DNA of 33,277 nt from Acetobacteraceae bacterium. Lineage in GTDB: Bacteria > Pseudomonadota > Alphaproteobacteria > Acetobacterales > Acetobacteraceae. Both the position numbers and the translations under genes were made by a program. The stretch lies in assembly GCA_019750465.1 (NCBI GenBank), contig JAIEOP010000039.1, positions 1 through 33,277 on the forward strand, given 5' to 3'. Positions 10,468 to 21,161 of the stretch are shown piece after piece. A model generated the notes under the pieces. The model was given only the letters and a program-made list of their open reading frames with translations, did not search any database and was not told the origin of the DNA. Positions within the stretch are counted from its first letter, which is position 1; each line of letters begins with the position of its first letter.

Positions 10468-12159
10468 ATGACCCTTTCCCGTCCGTGGCGCGCGGCCCTT
10501 GCCACGCTGGCCTGCCTGGCCTCCCTCGGCGTGTTCTTCCGCGGCCAGCTCGCCGACGGCTTCGCCCTGCTGATCGGCGACCGCCATGACGGCGTGATCG
10601 CGCTCGCCATCATGGAGCACTGGTCGAACCTGCTGCGCGGCGAGGCAGCCGCCTGGGACCGCACCTTCTACTTCCACCCGGTGCCGGCGACGCTCGGCTA
10701 CAATGACGGCTACCTTGCCTTCGGCCTGCTGCTGGCGGCCTTCCGCGCGGCCGGCGCCGATCCCTTCCTGGCGGGCGAGCTCGCGAACGTCGCGCTGCGG
10801 GCGATCGGGTTCCTGGGCTGCCACCTGCTGGCGCGGCGGGTCTTCGGGCTGTCCTTTTCCTGGGCGCTGCTCGGCGCGGCGCTGTTCACGCTGAGCAACA
10901 ACCTCTTCATCCGCGCCAGCCACGCGCAGCTGTTCAGCGTCTCGCTGGTGCCGATGCTCGGCGTGCTGGCGCACGGCGCGGGGGCGGCGCTGATCGCCGG
11001 GCGGCGGGGCGCGCTGCTGGGCTGGGGCGCCGGCTTCGTGCTGTGGCACGCGATGATGCTGCTCACCGGCTTCTACATGGCCTGGTACGCGGCCCTTTTC
11101 GGCGCGCTGCTGCTGCCGGCCTGGCTGCTGGTGGCGGGCGCCGGCCGGCGCGGCGCGCTGCTGCGCGGCGTCGCGCGCGGCTGGTGGGCGCTGGCGGGAC
11201 TCGGTGGTTTCGCCGCGCTGGTGAACCTGCCCTTCCTTCGCCTCTATCTGCCGAAGGCGCGGGAGACCGGCATGCACGACTACGCCGGCATGGTGGCGCA
11301 GTACACGCTCTCGCCGCTCGACATCCTGCATGTGGGCGAGCGCAACCTGCTCTGGGGCTGGCTGGTCAGGGCGCTGAACGACGCCTTCCGCCCCGGCTTC
11401 CCGGCCTGGTCCGAGCAGATGACCGGGCTGCCGCTGCTGCTGGTGCTGCTCTTCGCCGGCGCGCTGGCCTGGGTCTGGCGCGGCGCGCCGGATGACCGGG
11501 CGGTGCTGCTGCGCGCCATCGCCATCGCCACGGTGGCAAGCTGGGCGCTGACGATCCGCCTGGGTGAATCCTCGCCCTGGTGGCTCGTGTACCAGCATGT
11601 GCCGGGCGCGCGGGCCGCGCGGGTGGTGGCGCGCTACCAGATCTTCATCACCGTGCCGGTGATCGGGCTGGCGCTGGCGATGCTGGCGGCGCTGCTGGCC
11701 CGGCTGCCGCCCGCGCGCGCCACGGCGCTGGCCGGCCTCGCCGCGGCGCTGCTGCTGGCCGAGCAGGTGAACCTCTACGCGCCGCGCTTCCTCGACCGGG
11801 GGCTGGAGCTGTCGCGGCTGCGGGCGGTGCCGCCGCCGCCCGCCGCCTGCCGCGCCTTCTTCGTCACCGCCGCGCGCACCGAAAGCCGCTTCGGCGAGGA
11901 GGTGGCGAACATCTACAACCACAACACCGAGGCGATGCTGATCGCCGAGGTACTCAGGCTGCCGACGATCAACGGCATCTCCACCTTCAACCCGCCGCAC
12001 TGGCCCGGCGGCTTCCCGCCGCAACCCGAGTACCTGGAGGCGGTGCGACGCCATGCCGCGGCGTGGGACGTGGAGGACGGGCTCTGCGGCCTCGACCTGC
12101 AGCGCTTCGCCTGGGACACGGCGCCGCTCAGTGCAGCCGCGCCGCCCCCTCCGCGGTGA
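10468..12159 (+). CDS. Polytopic membrane protein, GT-C-glycosyltransferase-like architecture
   Basis: This is about 563 residues with an N-terminal membrane helix (about 8-24). An acidic loop GDRHDG (about 37-42) follows, then roughly ten more hydrophobic segments up to about 435 and a soluble C-terminal region (about 440-563). An acidic loop after the first helix followed by many membrane segments resembles GT-C fold glycosyltransferases that use polyprenyl-linked sugars, but no diagnostic motif lets me name a family. I prefer the ATG at 10468 over a TTG at 10447. Its 3' end overlaps the convergent phnM-like gene by 32 bases, so the last codons of both share DNA. Confidence 0.72.
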   Translation: MTLSRPWRAALATLACLASLGVFFRGQLADGFALLIGDRHDGVIALAIMEHWSNLLRGEAAAWDRTFYFHPVPATLGYNDGYLAFGLLLAAFRAAGADPFLAGELANVALRAIGFLGCHLLARRVFGLSFSWALLGAALFTLSNNLFIRASHAQLFSVSLVPMLGVLAHGAGAALIAGRRGALLGWGAGFVLWHAMMLLTGFYMAWYAALFGALLLPAWLLVAGAGRRGALLRGVARGWWALAGLGGFAALVNLPFLRLYLPKARETGMHDYAGMVAQYTLSPLDILHVGERNLLWGWLVRALNDAFRPGFPAWSEQMTGLPLLLVLLFAGALAWVWRGAPDDRAVLLRAIAIATVASWALTIRLGESSPWWLVYQHVPGARAARVVARYQIFITVPVIGLALAMLAALLARLPPARATALAGLAAALLLAEQVNLYAPRFLDRGLELSRLRAVPPPPAACRAFFVTAARTESRFGEEVANIYNHNTEAMLIAEVLRLPTINGISTFNPPHWPGGFPPQPEYLEAVRRHAAAWDVEDGLCGLDLQRFAWDTAPLSAAAPPPPR

Positions 12160-13276
12160 GGTGGGCGGGCCGCCCGGCGCAGAACACGGCGATCACGCGC
12201 GGGCCTGCCGGATCGACCACAGCCACGTCGCCGCGCCGCCCGGGCAGCAGCGCGCCACGATCAGCGAGACCCGCCGCGGCCGCCGGGTTGGCCGAGACCA
12301 GCGCCCAGGCCCGCGCCAGATCCAGGCCGCCCGGGCGCCGCGCCATGGCGAAGGGCGCCTCCAGCAGCGCGGGCCAGTGGTAGTCGGAGGCCAGCACCGT
12401 CACCAGGCCGCGCTCGGCGAGCGGCGCGGCGCTGGCCCAGCCGAGATGGCTGCCGCCGCGCACCACGTTGGGCGCGCCCATCACCACTGCCTCGCCATGC
12501 GCGCGCGCGTCCTGCGCCACGCTTTCCGCCATCGGGAATTCGCAGATCGCGGCGCCGTGGCCGCGGTAGTGCGCGCGGTCCTCAAGGGTCGCGTCGTCAT
12601 GGCTCAGCATGGGGATGCCGGCCGCGCGCGCGGCCGCGGCGAGCCGGGCGCGGGCAGCCGGCACCTCGCCGCGCCGCGCCGCGATGCGCTCGATCAGCGC
12701 GCGGAATTCGGGTTCGGGCAGGCCGGCGCGGCCGGCGTATTTCGCCATCTGCTGCGGGTCGTGCAGGCGCTTCAGGATCGGCGGCGTGTGGTCGTTGAAG
12801 CCGAGCAGGTGCACGCGACCGGCGGCGATGTCGGCCAGCGCCTCATCGAGGGCGTCCAGGTTGTCGGCCTCGAAGCGCAGGTGCACGCGGAGGTCGGGCG
12901 CGGGCAGCGCCGCCCGCGCCCTGTCCAGCGCCGCCATCAGCGCGCGCCATGTCCCGAGCGAGCGCAGCCCCGGCTCCCAGGACAGGGTGACGCCGAGATA
13001 GGCGGTGGTGATGCCGCTCGCCAGCAGCTGCGCCGCGGTGTCACGCACCGCGACCGCGGCGGGGAAGCCGACGCCGGGCCGCGGCTGCAGCGCGCGCTCA
13101 TGCGCATCGCCATGGATGTCCACCAGGCCCGGCAGCACGAGCAGCCCGGCGGCATCGAAGCGCCGCGCCGCGCCGCCGCCGGTCGCCGCCACCTCCTGCC
13201 CGCGCAGGTGCAGCGCGCCCGGCTCCAGGCGGTCGCCGGCGAGCACCGTGCCCGCGAGGATGTCGAAGCCCGGCAT
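12128..13276 (-). CDS. Divergent PhnM-like amidohydrolase
   Basis: This 382-residue amidohydrolase is clearly related to PhnM, which cleaves pyrophosphate from ribose-1-phosphonate 5-triphosphate. It has LPGLVDIHGDAHE (about 48-60), HLRFEADN, SHDDAT and GAPNVVRGGSHLG in order. It departs from the canonical gene at 18663-19811: HTDNLE becomes HGDAHE, HLRCEL becomes HLRFEA, LMDHSPG becomes FNDHTPP, and GGSHSGN becomes GGSHLGW. The metal-site region thus gains a second His. It starts one base after the phnF stop on the same strand, so it is cotranscribed with the regulator and away from the main operon. It may act on a different substrate or be a second diphosphatase. Confidence 0.85.
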   Translation of the reverse strand: MPGFDILAGTVLAGDRLEPGALHLRGQEVAATGGGAARRFDAAGLLVLPGLVDIHGDAHERALQPRPGVGFPAAVAVRDTAAQLLASGITTAYLGVTLSWEPGLRSLGTWRALMAALDRARAALPAPDLRVHLRFEADNLDALDEALADIAAGRVHLLGFNDHTPPILKRLHDPQQMAKYAGRAGLPEPEFRALIERIAARRGEVPAARARLAAAARAAGIPMLSHDDATLEDRAHYRGHGAAICEFPMAESVAQDARAHGEAVVMGAPNVVRGGSHLGWASAAPLAERGLVTVLASDYHWPALLEAPFAMARRPGGLDLARAWALVSANPAAAAGLADRGALLPGRRGDVAVVDPAGPRVIAVFCAGRPAHLTAEGAARLH

Positions 13277-17971: not shown

Positions 17972-18666
17972 GATACGCCATCAGGACCGAGGGCCTGTCG
18001 AAGTCCTTCACCCTGCACCTGCAGGGCGGTGTCACGCTGCCCGTGCTGCACGACGTGGAACTGGCGGTGGCGCCCGGCGAGTGCGTGGCGCTCGCAGGCC
18101 CGTCCGGCGCCGGGAAATCGACGCTGATGCGCTGCCTCTACGGCAACTACGGCGCCGGGAAGGGACGCATCCTGCTGCGCCATGGCGAGACGGAGATCGA
18201 CCTCGCCGCGGCGGATGCGCGCGTGATGCGTGCGGTGCGGCGCGACACGCTCGGCTATGTCAGCCAGTTCCTGCGCGTCATTCCGCGCGTCGCCACGCTC
18301 GACATCGTGGCCGAGCCGCTGCTGGCACGCGGCGTGGCGCTGGAAGCGGCGCGCGATCGCGCCACTTCGCTGCTGGCGCGGCTGAACCTGCCGGCGAAGC
18401 TGCACGGGTTGCCGCCGGCCACCTTCTCGGGCGGCGAGCAGCAGCGGGTGAACCTCGCCCGGGGCTTCGCGCCGCGCTACCCGGTGCTGCTGCTCGACGA
18501 GCCGACCGCCAGCCTCGATGCGGCCAATCGGGCCGTCGTCATCGGCCTGGTCGAGGAGGCGAAGCGGGCGGGCACGGCCATCATCGGCATCTTCCACGAT
18601 GCCGAGGTGCGCGAGCGCGTGGCCGATCGCCTGTTCGAGGTGCACCCCATCCCCGCCGCGGCATGA
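17968..18666 (+). CDS. phnL: C-P lyase accessory ATPase PhnL
   Basis: This 232-residue ABC-type ATPase has Walker A GPSGAGKST (44-52), signature FSGGEQQRVN (153-162) and Walker B LLLDEPTASLD (174-184). It resembles PhnL and other single-domain LolD-like ATPases, and the C-terminal IFHDAEVRERVADRLFEV is typical of PhnL. PhnL associates with the C-P lyase core. It is coupled to its neighbours by ATGA overlaps. Confidence 0.95.
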   Translation: MRYAIRTEGLSKSFTLHLQGGVTLPVLHDVELAVAPGECVALAGPSGAGKSTLMRCLYGNYGAGKGRILLRHGETEIDLAAADARVMRAVRRDTLGYVSQFLRVIPRVATLDIVAEPLLARGVALEAARDRATSLLARLNLPAKLHGLPPATFSGGEQQRVNLARGFAPRYPVLLLDEPTASLDAANRAVVIGLVEEAKRAGTAIIGIFHDAEVRERVADRLFEVHPIPAAA

Positions 18667-19811
18667 GCATGACCATCGAGACCGTCCTGACCAACGCCCT
18701 GCTCGTCCTGCCGGACCGGGTCGTGCCCGGCACCGTCGTGTTGCGCGGCACGGTGATCGCGGAGGTGCAGCCCGGCCGCAGCCACCTGCCCGGCGCGCTG
18801 GACCTGGACGGCGACCACCTCATCCCCGGCATCGTCGATGTCCATACCGACAACCTGGAACGCCAGGTGCAGCCGCGCGCCAATGCGCGCTGGCCGAGCC
18901 GCTCGGCGATGCTGGCGCATGATGCGCAATGCGCGGCGGCCGGCGTGACGACGGTGCTGGATGCGCTCTGCCTCGGCGATCTCGGCTTCGATCCGGGGCG
19001 CGGGCAGACCTTCCGCGACGGCGTGGAGGACCTGGACGCGCTGGCCGGGACGGGCCTGCTGAAGGCCGAGCATTTCCTGCACCTGCGCTGCGAACTGCCG
19101 GCACCGGACATGAAGCCGGCGCTGGAGCCGGTGGCCGAGCATCCGCGGGTGCGCATGGTCAGCCTGATGGACCACTCGCCCGGCATCGGCCAGTACCGCG
19201 ACATGGACCGCTACCGGGCGCTGCGCAAGCGCCAGCGCGAGATGACCGACGCCGATGTCGAGCGCCGCATCCACGAGTTGCTGGACCAGCGCGCCCGGCT
19301 GCGCGAGCCGCAGCGGCGCTGGCTGCTGGACCGCATCGCGCACCGCGACCTGCCGCTGGCCAGCCATGACGACGACGATGTCGAGGAGGTCGCGCGCAAC
19401 GCCGCCGACGGCATCCACATCAGCGAATTCCCCGTGGTGATGGCGGCGGCGAAGGCGGCGCGCGCGCTGGGCCTGGAGGTGATCGCCGGCGCCCCCAACA
19501 TCGTGCGCGGCGGCAGCCATTCCGGCAACGTCGCCGCCGCCGAGCTGGTGCGGGAGGGCGCGGTGGACGCGCTGGCCAGCGACTACGTGCCGGCGGCGCT
19601 GCTGGAAGCCGCCTGGCGCTGCGCGGCGGAGACGGGGATCAGCCTGCCGGCCGCCGTGGCGATGGTGACCGACCGTCCCGCGCGCATGGCGCGGCTCGGC
19701 GACCGCGGGCGCATCGCGGCGGGGCTGCGCGCGGACCTGGTGCAGGTGCGGCCGCTGGACGGGCTTCCCGTGCCGCGGCGGGTCTGGCGCGCAAGTGAGC
19801 GCGTGGCGTGA
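18663..19811 (+). CDS. phnM: Alpha-D-ribose 1-methylphosphonate 5-triphosphate diphosphatase PhnM
   Basis: This 382-residue amidohydrolase has the canonical PhnM set: IPGIVDVHTDNLE (about 54-66), HLRCELPAPD, SLMDHSPG, SHDDDD and GAPNIVRGGSHSGN in order. It converts alkylphosphonate ribosyl triphosphate to the monophosphate plus pyrophosphate, the substrate for PhnJ. It is the same length as the divergent paralogue at 12128-13276 but clearly the canonical copy. The stop TGA overlaps a GTG that opens the relay of mini-ORFs leading to the next gene. Confidence 0.97.
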   Translation: MSMTIETVLTNALLVLPDRVVPGTVVLRGTVIAEVQPGRSHLPGALDLDGDHLIPGIVDVHTDNLERQVQPRANARWPSRSAMLAHDAQCAAAGVTTVLDALCLGDLGFDPGRGQTFRDGVEDLDALAGTGLLKAEHFLHLRCELPAPDMKPALEPVAEHPRVRMVSLMDHSPGIGQYRDMDRYRALRKRQREMTDADVERRIHELLDQRARLREPQRRWLLDRIAHRDLPLASHDDDDVEEVARNAADGIHISEFPVVMAAAKAARALGLEVIAGAPNIVRGGSHSGNVAAAELVREGAVDALASDYVPAALLEAAWRCAAETGISLPAAVAMVTDRPARMARLGDRGRIAAGLRADLVQVRPLDGLPVPRRVWRASERVA

Positions 19812-19927
19812 AGGACGCGCGGGGAGGTCGCGTGACGGCGCGCGGGAAGGTCGCGTGACAACGCGCGGGGAGGTCGCGTGACAACGCGCGGGAAGGTCGC
19901 GTGACGACGCGCGGGACGGCCAATTGA
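19808..19927 (+). other. Chain of overlapping mini-ORFs (predicted translational relay)
   Basis: Reading from the GTG that overlaps the phnM stop gives a 16-codon ORF ending in TGA at 19856-19858. Next come three 8-codon ORFs with starts at GTG 19855, 19878 and 19901. Their stops are at 19879-19881, 19902-19904 and 19925-19927. Each stop overlaps the next start by four bases (GTGA), and the last stop overlaps the TTG start at 19924. The short peptides read MTTRGEVA, MTTRGKVA and MTTRGTAN. Whether they are translated is unknown, but the overlap pattern is exact. Confidence 0.6.
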
Positions 19928-19930
19928 GCG
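19816..19930. repeat. 23-bp tandem repeat spanning the phnM to phosphodiesterase junction
   Basis: Four near-identical 23-bp copies lie at 19816-19838, 19839-19861, 19862-19884 and 19885-19907. A fifth, degenerate copy (19908-19930) contains the start of the next gene. Each unit has a purine-rich GGGGAGG or GGGAAGG four bases upstream of GTGA; in the last copy these become GGGACGG and TTGA. Units alternate in one base (GGGG or GGGA). They are contiguous and without spacers, so this is not a CRISPR array. Confidence 0.97.
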
Positions 19931-20637
19931 GAGGGGCGCGCTTCGCGCTCTACTGGGCGCCCGAGCTGGATGATCCGCTGCACGCGCTGGGCTCGGCGTG
20001 GCTGGGGCGGGATGCGGAGACCGGCGCGGCACTGCCGCAGCCCGGGCTGCCCGGCGGGCTCGACATCTCCGATCTCACCGCCGATCCGCGCGGCTATGGA
20101 TTGCACGCCACGCTGAAGGCGCCGTTCCGGCTGGCGGGCGGCTATGCCGCCCTGGAAGCGGCGGTGCAGGCGTTCGCCGCGCGCACCGCTCCCTTCGACC
20201 TGCCGCCGCTGGCCGTGTGCGACCTCTCCGGCTTCCTGGCCTTGCGCGAGACGGCGCCCTGCCCGGCGCTGCACGCGCTCGCCGATGCCGCCGTGCTGGC
20301 GCTGGAGCCCTGCCGCGCGCCGCTCACCGAAGCGGAGTGGGCGCGCCGCCGCCGCGGCGGCCTCAGCGCGGCGGCGGAGGCGCGGGTCGCCCGCTGGGGC
20401 TACCACCTGGTCTTCGAAGCCTGGCGCTTCCACGTGACCCTGACGCGGCGCCTGACGCCGGGGGAGCACGCCATCGTGCGGCCCGCGCTCATCGCGCATC
20501 TCGGTGACGCGCCGGCGCGCGTGCGGCGGGTGCGATCGATCTGCCTGTTCTCCCAGGCCGGGCCGGGCGTGCCATTCCGCATCGCCCGGCGCGTGCCGCT
20601 GGCAGGGGCCGCCCCAGGGCCGCCTCCGACCGGATGA
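19924..20637 (+). CDS. 2H-phosphodiesterase-like phosphonate metabolism protein (DUF1045 type)
   Basis: This 237-residue protein begins LSGGARFALYWAPELDDPL and includes two HxT motifs, GLHATLK (His61, Thr63) and FHVTLT (His170, Thr172). These define the 2H phosphodiesterase fold, in the subgroup often found in phn operons. The family may open ribosyl cyclic phosphate and could replace PhnP, which is absent here; this is inference. The TTG start sits in the fifth copy of the tandem repeat and overlaps the stop of the last mini-ORF, and no ATG lies closer to the conserved N-terminus. Confidence 0.85.
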   Translation: MSGGARFALYWAPELDDPLHALGSAWLGRDAETGAALPQPGLPGGLDISDLTADPRGYGLHATLKAPFRLAGGYAALEAAVQAFAARTAPFDLPPLAVCDLSGFLALRETAPCPALHALADAAVLALEPCRAPLTEAEWARRRRGGLSAAAEARVARWGYHLVFEAWRFHVTLTRRLTPGEHAIVRPALIAHLGDAPARVRRVRSICLFSQAGPGVPFRIARRVPLAGAAPGPPPTG

Positions 20638-21161
20638 TCCCATCCGATCGGATGCCGCTCCATCGCTTGCCTGCGTGGCGGCGCCGCGGCGCTCGCCCTG
20701 GCGGCGACCACGGTCTCGTTCTCGCCGGCGGCCTGCGTCTGCGCTGGATCGAACCGCATCGGGACTTCGCCGCGCTCTGCAGCCTGCGCCTCGCCATCGG
20801 CTGGGACGCCTGGACGCCGGCGGAGCGGCCCCTGGTCGAAGCCTATGACGTCCGCCTCGGCCTGCTCTGGCACGGCACGCTGGTCGGGTGGGTCGGGGCG
20901 GTTGAGCTGCGGCGCCGGTGCCCGCTGCTGGTGGACCTGATGGTGCATCCCGACTTCCGGCGGCGCGGCGTCGCCTCGGCGCTGATCGCGCGCTGCGCCA
21001 CGCTGCTCGCGCGGAAGCGATTGCCGCGAATGGAGACGCGCTGCGACCCGGCGCGACGGCGTTTCTTCGTGGCGCAGGGTTTCCGTGATTGTCCTTCGCG
21101 GCGCCTGGACGATACGCTCCGGCTCGCGATGCGTCTGCCGCGTCGGCACGGGACCGGTTGA
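20634..21161 (+). CDS. GNAT-family N-acetyltransferase in the phn operon
   Basis: This 175-residue protein has a GNAT motif A, LLVDLMVHPDFRRRGVASALI (acetyl-CoA loop RRRGVA), and a C-terminal FFVAQGFRD. Its ATG overlaps the phosphodiesterase stop (ATGA), so it belongs to the same transcript. PhnO acetylates aminoalkylphosphonates in some operons, so this is a candidate for a similar role, but there is no close PhnO-specific signature. An Arg-rich stretch at the start (residues 7-25) may mean a later start, such as the Met at residue 7. Confidence 0.78.
   Translation: MIPSDRMPLHRLPAWRRRGARPGGDHGLVLAGGLRLRWIEPHRDFAALCSLRLAIGWDAWTPAERPLVEAYDVRLGLLWHGTLVGWVGAVELRRRCPLLVDLMVHPDFRRRGVASALIARCATLLARKRLPRMETRCDPARRRFFVAQGFRDCPSRRLDDTLRLAMRLPRRHGTG

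Follow-up and report, generated by a model that had tools for sequence, protein, structure and literature searches.

Translational coupling by termination and reinitiation at stop/start overlaps of the NTGA and TGATG types has been tested in gene pairs of E. coli and Haloferax (PMC6728339; PMC10666635). In six tested pairs added intergenic distance is reported to have strongly reduced reinitiation, with about 20 nt nearly abolishing the coupling (PMC10666635), and a review reports studies in which coupling extended over longer spacing (PMC12548453). A short upstream ORF has also been described as promoting the next gene, e.g. mgtQ, located between mgtC and mgtB of Salmonella, and a synthetic nfORF (PMC8092293; PMC13255528); mgtQ is described as working via alternative stem-loops and acidic residues (PMC8092293). 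Repeats that preserve coupling are known from mycobacteria as MIRUs, which lie in an operon junction and carry a short ORF coupled to its neighbor by a -4 stop/start overlap. The MIRU units reported at senX3-regX3 of Mycobacterium tuberculosis are 77 and 53 bp (PMC4213456), both of which are 3n-1 lengths, and MIRUs are described as apparently mobile and interspersed (PMC12548453).

The window, which is the whole stretch of 33,277 nucleotides that was analyzed and is contig 489 of an Acetobacteraceae draft genome (6.04 Mb, 522 contigs, 95% complete), contains a tandem array of tiny overlapping ORFs between phnM and a gene for a DUF1045 protein. The same -4 overlap as in the NTGA and TGATG coupled pairs is found at each step of the array, within the 4- or 1-nt overlap or gap of a few nucleotides that marks such pairs; whereas those pairs join two genes directly, a series of tiny ORFs stands in between here, and unlike the array mgtQ and nfORF are single, non-repeated ORFs. 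The array is laid out as a MIRU, with a repeat in an operon junction and -4 coupled short ORFs, but it is a different repeat: its unit is 23 bp rather than the reported 77 and 53 bp, it occurs at one place in its genome rather than interspersed, and the similar arrays of the family have other sequences, several of them copying their own junction (the comparison being one of layout and reported lengths). Among the matches listed, in titles, the starts of abstracts and open-licence PMC text, no relay of this kind was seen outside the MIRUs. We read the array, with a probability of roughly 0.6, as a small minisatellite that lies in an NTGA stop/start-overlap junction and preserves translational coupling, and we infer its use by ribosomes. 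In our judgment it is a MIRU-like, coupling-preserving junction repeat whose birth was probably local.

The mini-ORF array in the phn operon

The operon is a co-directional run of phnG, H, I, J, K, L and M, the DUF1045 gene and a GNAT-type acetyltransferase ORF. Within this run the phnM/DUF1045 junction is the sole exception to overlap, and because all seven other junctions overlap by 4 or 1 nt the operon appears to be built for coupled translation. phnM (18663-19811, forward strand as are all features of the array and operon given here) scores above the cut-offs of NCBIfam NF011984 and TIGR02318 in a scan from 18657, its start being set by the 4-nt overlap with phnL, and its TGA stop (19809-19811) is contained within GTGA 19808-19811. 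The downstream gene (19924-20637) has a TTG start, which is the only ATG, GTG or TTG of its open frame upstream of the conserved ALYW, and encodes a 2H-phosphoesterase-like DUF1045 protein (Pfam PF06299, 2.3e-47; PF13563, 3.9e-7) that reaches 227 bits against TIGR03223, under the curated cut-off of 248.95. One of these Pfam matches, to the 2'-5' RNA ligase-like family, is weak; by eye the protein has two HxT motifs, which fit a 2H phosphoesterase. The draft genome has a single PhnP model match, at 79 bits against a cut-off of 272, which is consistent with the DUF1045 protein having replaced PhnP but does not prove it. The acetyltransferase ORF (20634-21161; Pfam PF00583, 2.2e-10) overlaps the DUF1045 gene by 4 nt. 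A second phnM-like gene, whose best model NF011987 represents another subfamily, lies on the reverse strand at 12128-13276 beside phnF and divergent from the main operon.

The array begins with a unit of 24 nt (19806-19829), one base longer than the four 23-bp units that follow (19830-19852, 19853-19875, 19876-19898 and 19899-19921). It is the top-scoring of the 24 TRF rows of the window, with a period of 23, 4.8 copies over 19806-19916 and 89% matches, i.e. the head-to-tail similar units of a VNTR or minisatellite, and a pattern scan finds four units at no more than three mismatches as compared to none in 100 shuffles. Sequence, TRF and pattern scan thus agree that the 23-bp tandem array of overlapping mini-ORFs described in the initial annotation is real. 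The units differ by point changes over a total of about 115 bp. A mobile or dispersed element was rejected for the source genome because the unit occurs there at a single place, the four array copies being the only matches at up to three mismatches.

Start codons are GTG at 19808, 19832, 19855, 19878 and 19901, followed by the TTG at 19924; from 19855 on every GTGA or TTGA contains the stop of the preceding frame. From the phnM stop the chain runs through ORFs of 16, 8, 8 and 8 codons to the TTG. Since the first unit is 24 nt, the ORF that opens at 19808 continues in frame past 19832 to its stop at 19856-19858, and this 16-codon ORF (19808-19858) holds a nested ORF of 8 codons, MTARGKVA (19832-19858). 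The three that follow are MTTRGEVA (19855-19881), MTTRGKVA (19878-19904) and MTTRGTAN (19901-19927), the stop of the last lying within TTGA 19924-19927. The stop/start geometry of the 16, 8, 8 and 8 codon relay as originally annotated therefore stands, with the correction that the first unit is 24 nt and that the first ORF encloses a fourth one of 8 codons. The Shine-Dalgarno-like run ascribed to each unit is strong at the four inner starts, with duplexes in order of -11.5, -7.2, -11.5 and -7.2 kcal/mol against a window background of -3.0 +/- 2.5, but ordinary (-3.7 kcal/mol) at 19808; the TTG at 19924 has -6.5 kcal/mol. No other chain of at least three NTGA-linked frames of up to 20 codons occurs on either strand of the window, and 60 first-order Markov resamples of the window gave a mean of 0.25 chains of at least three and none of at least four.

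Ribosomes finishing phnM would restart at the overlapping GTG at 19808 and, restarting again at every NTGA, work through 16, 8, 8 and 8 codons until they reach the DUF1045 TTG. A relay of overlapping mini-ORFs would be a way to cross 115 nt with no untranslated gap. Where the unit length is 3n-1 bases (n codons and a stop, less 4) the same overlap recurs in every copy, so that the link can outlast additions and deletions of units, and the repeat is most likely tolerated because coupling is preserved.

Conservation of linkage at the phnM/DUF1045 junction

A DUF1045 gene is present in 245 of 397 genomes of the family. The 130 examined were the best-scoring and not a random sample (the source genome, 29 loci and 100 fetched stretches), and two (L152 and L211) were dropped for want of a recognizable phnM upstream, leaving 128 junctions. 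Direct stop/start overlap joins the two genes in 99 of the 128 (82 NTGA and 17 TGATG), one or more overlapping mini-ORFs bridge a spacer in 16, and neither applies to 13, seven of which have the start only a few bases from the stop (spacer of 5 nt or less). The unbroken linkage of phnM to the gene downstream is thus mostly kept across the family. Among the 13, L186 of genus g16 has a 24-bp tandem array in which a 32-codon frame ends 1 base before an in-frame ATG. L231 and L239 of genus g18, also among the 13, show by eye a 26-bp duplication that yields short frames before the ATG; in L239 these frames are separated by 2-nt gaps (TGA-NN-ATG), relay-like without overlap.

Within the genus of the window one other species was examined, and it has a direct TGATG junction and no array. 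Arrays with a core similar to that of the window are found at this junction in G063 (24-bp units, one frame of 41 codons), G165 (24- and 26-nt units, two frames) and G208 (25-26-nt units, one frame), and G270 has a degenerate form with a similar core. Arrays are absent from two examined congeners of G063 and from two further examined species of the genus that holds G165, G208 and G270. Comparison of this junction in relatives had been proposed beforehand as a test: a conserved 23-bp design does not survive it, as the arrays of relatives have units of 24-26 nt and those of G063 and G208 read as a single mini-ORF, whereas the chain of overlaps does. The unit length of 23 bp and the number of restarts are not conserved at phnM/DUF1045; the link is. 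GC-rich, palindromic-looking inserts of about 220-360 nt were also observed at the junction in three genera (L182, L190, L235 and L245), and in three of these four an open frame that starts from the phnM stop still runs right through the insert.

Whether linkage exceeds chance was assessed by randomizing phase in the 22 junctions with at least 35 nt from stop to anchor, in-frame extensions of DUF1045 included. Sixteen of the 22 are connected as compared to 6.9 expected (P = 5e-6); these comprise 12 mini-ORF bridges and four in-frame extensions of DUF1045, the latter also being counted among the 99 direct overlaps. With a phnM stop of the NTGA type the figure is 16 of 17 against 6.8 (P = 2e-6). 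Species are counted as independent in these statistics, except in a version with one row per genus, which gives 9 of 10 against 4.4 for the NTGA type (P = 0.003) and 9 of 14 against 4.5 with the non-NTGA genera included (P = 0.004). Long bridges that by eye are not tandem, of 68, 93 and 94 codons (the 93- and 94-codon bridges belonging to a single genus), are among those connected, and linkage holds in the spacers L174, L182, L190, L210 and L213, likewise non-tandem by eye. Letter shuffles that keep spacer length were applied to a separate set of 22 non-direct spacers of at least 10 nt, of which 16 are connected against 12.9 in dinucleotide shuffles (P = 0.02) and 10.0 in mononucleotide shuffles (P = 6e-5); for non-direct spacers of at least 40 nt it is 10 of 15 against 7.6 (P = 0.06). 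The excess is weaker here because length, and hence phase, stays fixed, so that such shuffles test little. The linkage signal sits largely in phase, and we read this as unbroken translation over the junction being under selection, or at least passing a strong filter. Six of the 22 spacers of at least 35 nt (L108, L186, L231, L234, L235 and L239) are not strictly linked, and coupling is consequently dispensable in some species. Translation through the array would keep open an RNA that is predicted to fold tightly, which may partly explain the rarity of unlinked spacers.

Relay arrays at other junctions and their origin

Four RTGA at an exact, constant spacing were searched for in 200 family genomes, which yielded 14 places at 23 nt, 12 at 26 nt and six at 20 nt. 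Eleven of the 32 places, that of the window among them, have an array that sets out from the stop codon of a long ORF and leads into the next long ORF, which its final frame opens either directly or via one more short frame; the G111 array begins from the second RTGA, and that of the window one 24-nt unit earlier than the run. The ten further relay arrays lie at unrelated junctions: L280 (G083), L294 and L316 (G016), L298 and L301 (G015), L256 (G160), L258 (G111), L275 (G136), L282 (G059) and L289 (G074). Pfam backs both neighbors in eight of the ten (CoA-transferase/TctC, AI-2E transporter/UPF0102, response regulator/histidine kinase, a CoA-ligase pair, tgt/queF, epimerase/glycosyltransferase, MscS/esterase, which is weak, and ABC permease/ATPase) and the downstream gene only in two (GMC oxidoreductase; 2-hydroxyacid dehydrogenase). 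Candidates not accepted as relays were L276 (G195), which chains 9, 9, 9 and 9 codons into a 115-codon ORF with no Pfam match for either neighbor, and L257, L262, L264, L265, L266, L278 and L281, which are flanked on one or both sides by a nearby long ORF but lack a complete chain between two supported genes. Copies of the same 26-bp relay-type array terminate two contigs of G016 (63 and 31; L317 and L318), as though the assembly had failed across a long array.

Periods of 22 and 25 were searched in 102 genomes (G000-G101) and gave seven places, only one of them at a junction. This 25-bp array of G059 still chains, two units at a time, through 17 codons to a 194-codon ORF. In the same 102 genomes junction arrays account for 8 of 22 places with the 3n-1 periods 20, 23 and 26 as compared to 1 of 7 with the 3n+1 periods 22 and 25, an excess that is suggestive only and not significant (rate test P = 0.07; Fisher P = 0.38). 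Unit-to-unit changes over the 11 arrays number 26, 28 and 17 at codon positions 1, 2 and 3. As there is no third-position excess, the mini-ORF peptides look unconstrained and are unlikely to matter; it would be the translating that counts. In viral contigs exact ATGA arrays lay between two long ORFs in 0 of 69 cases for period 23 and in two of the 83 matches listed for period 22, which gives no sign that relay arrays of these periods are general in viruses.

Origin by duplication of the gene junction, as originally suggested, is clear for several analogous arrays elsewhere but is not visible for the array in the window. Over 12 junction arrays, namely the 11 and the G059 array with its 25-bp units, the best unit end agrees with the end of its own upstream gene at 7.4 of 10 positions as compared to 4.2 for the ends of other genes, and with its own downstream start at 5.8 of 10 as compared to 3.7, the 10 of 10 of the G059 array being trivial since its downstream start lies within the array. 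The window array unit ends match the phnM end at 5 of 10 and the DUF1045 start at 3 of 10 positions, and L256 (3 and 5 of 10) has no clear match at either end. Against the junctions of relatives the window unit reaches at best 18 of 23, as do 16 of 200 shuffles, and of ten units so tested only that of G283 beats all 200. The GTGA..ACGC.CGGG core shared by the arrays at phnM/DUF1045 is suggestive of common ancestry, but sister species are without arrays and the matches to relatives' junctions mostly stay within the range of the shuffles. A loose pattern of the core matches in 106 of 397 genomes, mostly as isolated singles, with several dozen also for a reversed control; strict two-copy arrays occur in five of the 397, two at phnM/DUF1045 and the remaining three, all from genus g16, at a single different junction. 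The g16 arrays (L130/L319 in G016, L131 in G106 and L320 in G237) were rejected as relays, the 24-bp unit being in frame with the long downstream ORF as an N-terminal extension. That ORF thereby acquires N-terminal 8-residue repeats (e.g. REQRAEEG), a 3n counterpart of the relay, and by eye only it resembles a hydantoinase subunit.

Alternative explanations and significance

Among the other explanations, a regulator tuned by copy number, in which each stop and restart loses ribosomes so that the number of units sets the ratio of phosphodiesterase to PhnM and has been selected for that, appears unlikely. The unit arithmetic does allow copy number to change with the chain intact, and congeners do differ at the junction (in genus g25 two species have no array and three have different forms; in g63 two have none and one has an array), from which it follows that junction arrays are gained and lost quickly. 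However, conservation does not extend to the number of restarts, with one or two mini-ORFs in the similar arrays L084, L087, L088 and L089, and strong Shine-Dalgarno sequences within the units could offset the loss of ribosomes. Given such sequences in the inner units, the effect of the array on DUF1045 expression could be an increase as well as a decrease, and the data can be accounted for without a tuning role, possible though that is.

The strength of these inner sites is also the basis for a reading, to which we give no greater credence, of the array as a set of entry sites that recruit ribosomes de novo, the mini-ORFs delivering them to the weak TTG for a boost partly independent of phnM. 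Two of the inner starts have the strongest Shine-Dalgarno duplex of the operon, the other two ranking behind phnI (-10.0 kcal/mol) and phnK (-8.3), and in E. coli a short synthetic ORF that has a strong RBS next to its stop is reported to have boosted the gene behind it as much as 20-fold (PMC13255528). Set against this, the predicted structure could mask the sites unless they are translated from upstream, and several other relays have no clear Shine-Dalgarno sequence by eye. The structure itself is striking enough, at a predicted -90.9 kcal/mol (z -2.96; equaled in only 1 of 200 shuffles), for the array to be imagined as working at the RNA or DNA level (a stable hairpin, or a processing or protein site), with the frames a by-product of GTGA repeats in GC-rich DNA, and any stop-free NTGA repeat of 3n-1 bases does chain mechanically, even the 25-bp array via two units. 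This is distinctly less probable still: linkage holds in the non-tandem spacers too and lies above the phase-randomized expectation, there is no Rfam match anywhere in the window, and no promoter- or terminator-like site lies within 19500-20300. That the draft assembly has the number of units wrong, as the G016 contig ends might bring to mind, is the least credible explanation, given that the units differ by point changes, the array is short and similar arrays are present in other genomes.

The preferred reading, a junction minisatellite that preserves coupling, suggests that the MIRU-like trick of carrying an operon repeat without loss of coupling has arisen repeatedly in one family far from the mycobacteria, in several cases by local duplication instead of dispersal. 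More broadly, it may be that overlapping junctions of the Acetobacteraceae repeatedly generate self-preserving relay minisatellites, duplications of 3n-1 being kept as coupling remains intact and copy number serving as an evolvable and reversible dial of the ratio of neighboring proteins, a generalization that is for now doubtful. The 3n-1 phase rule predicts which insertions survive at overlapping junctions, and natural junctions with differing numbers of successive restarts provide material for measuring the efficiency of repeated termination and reinitiation.
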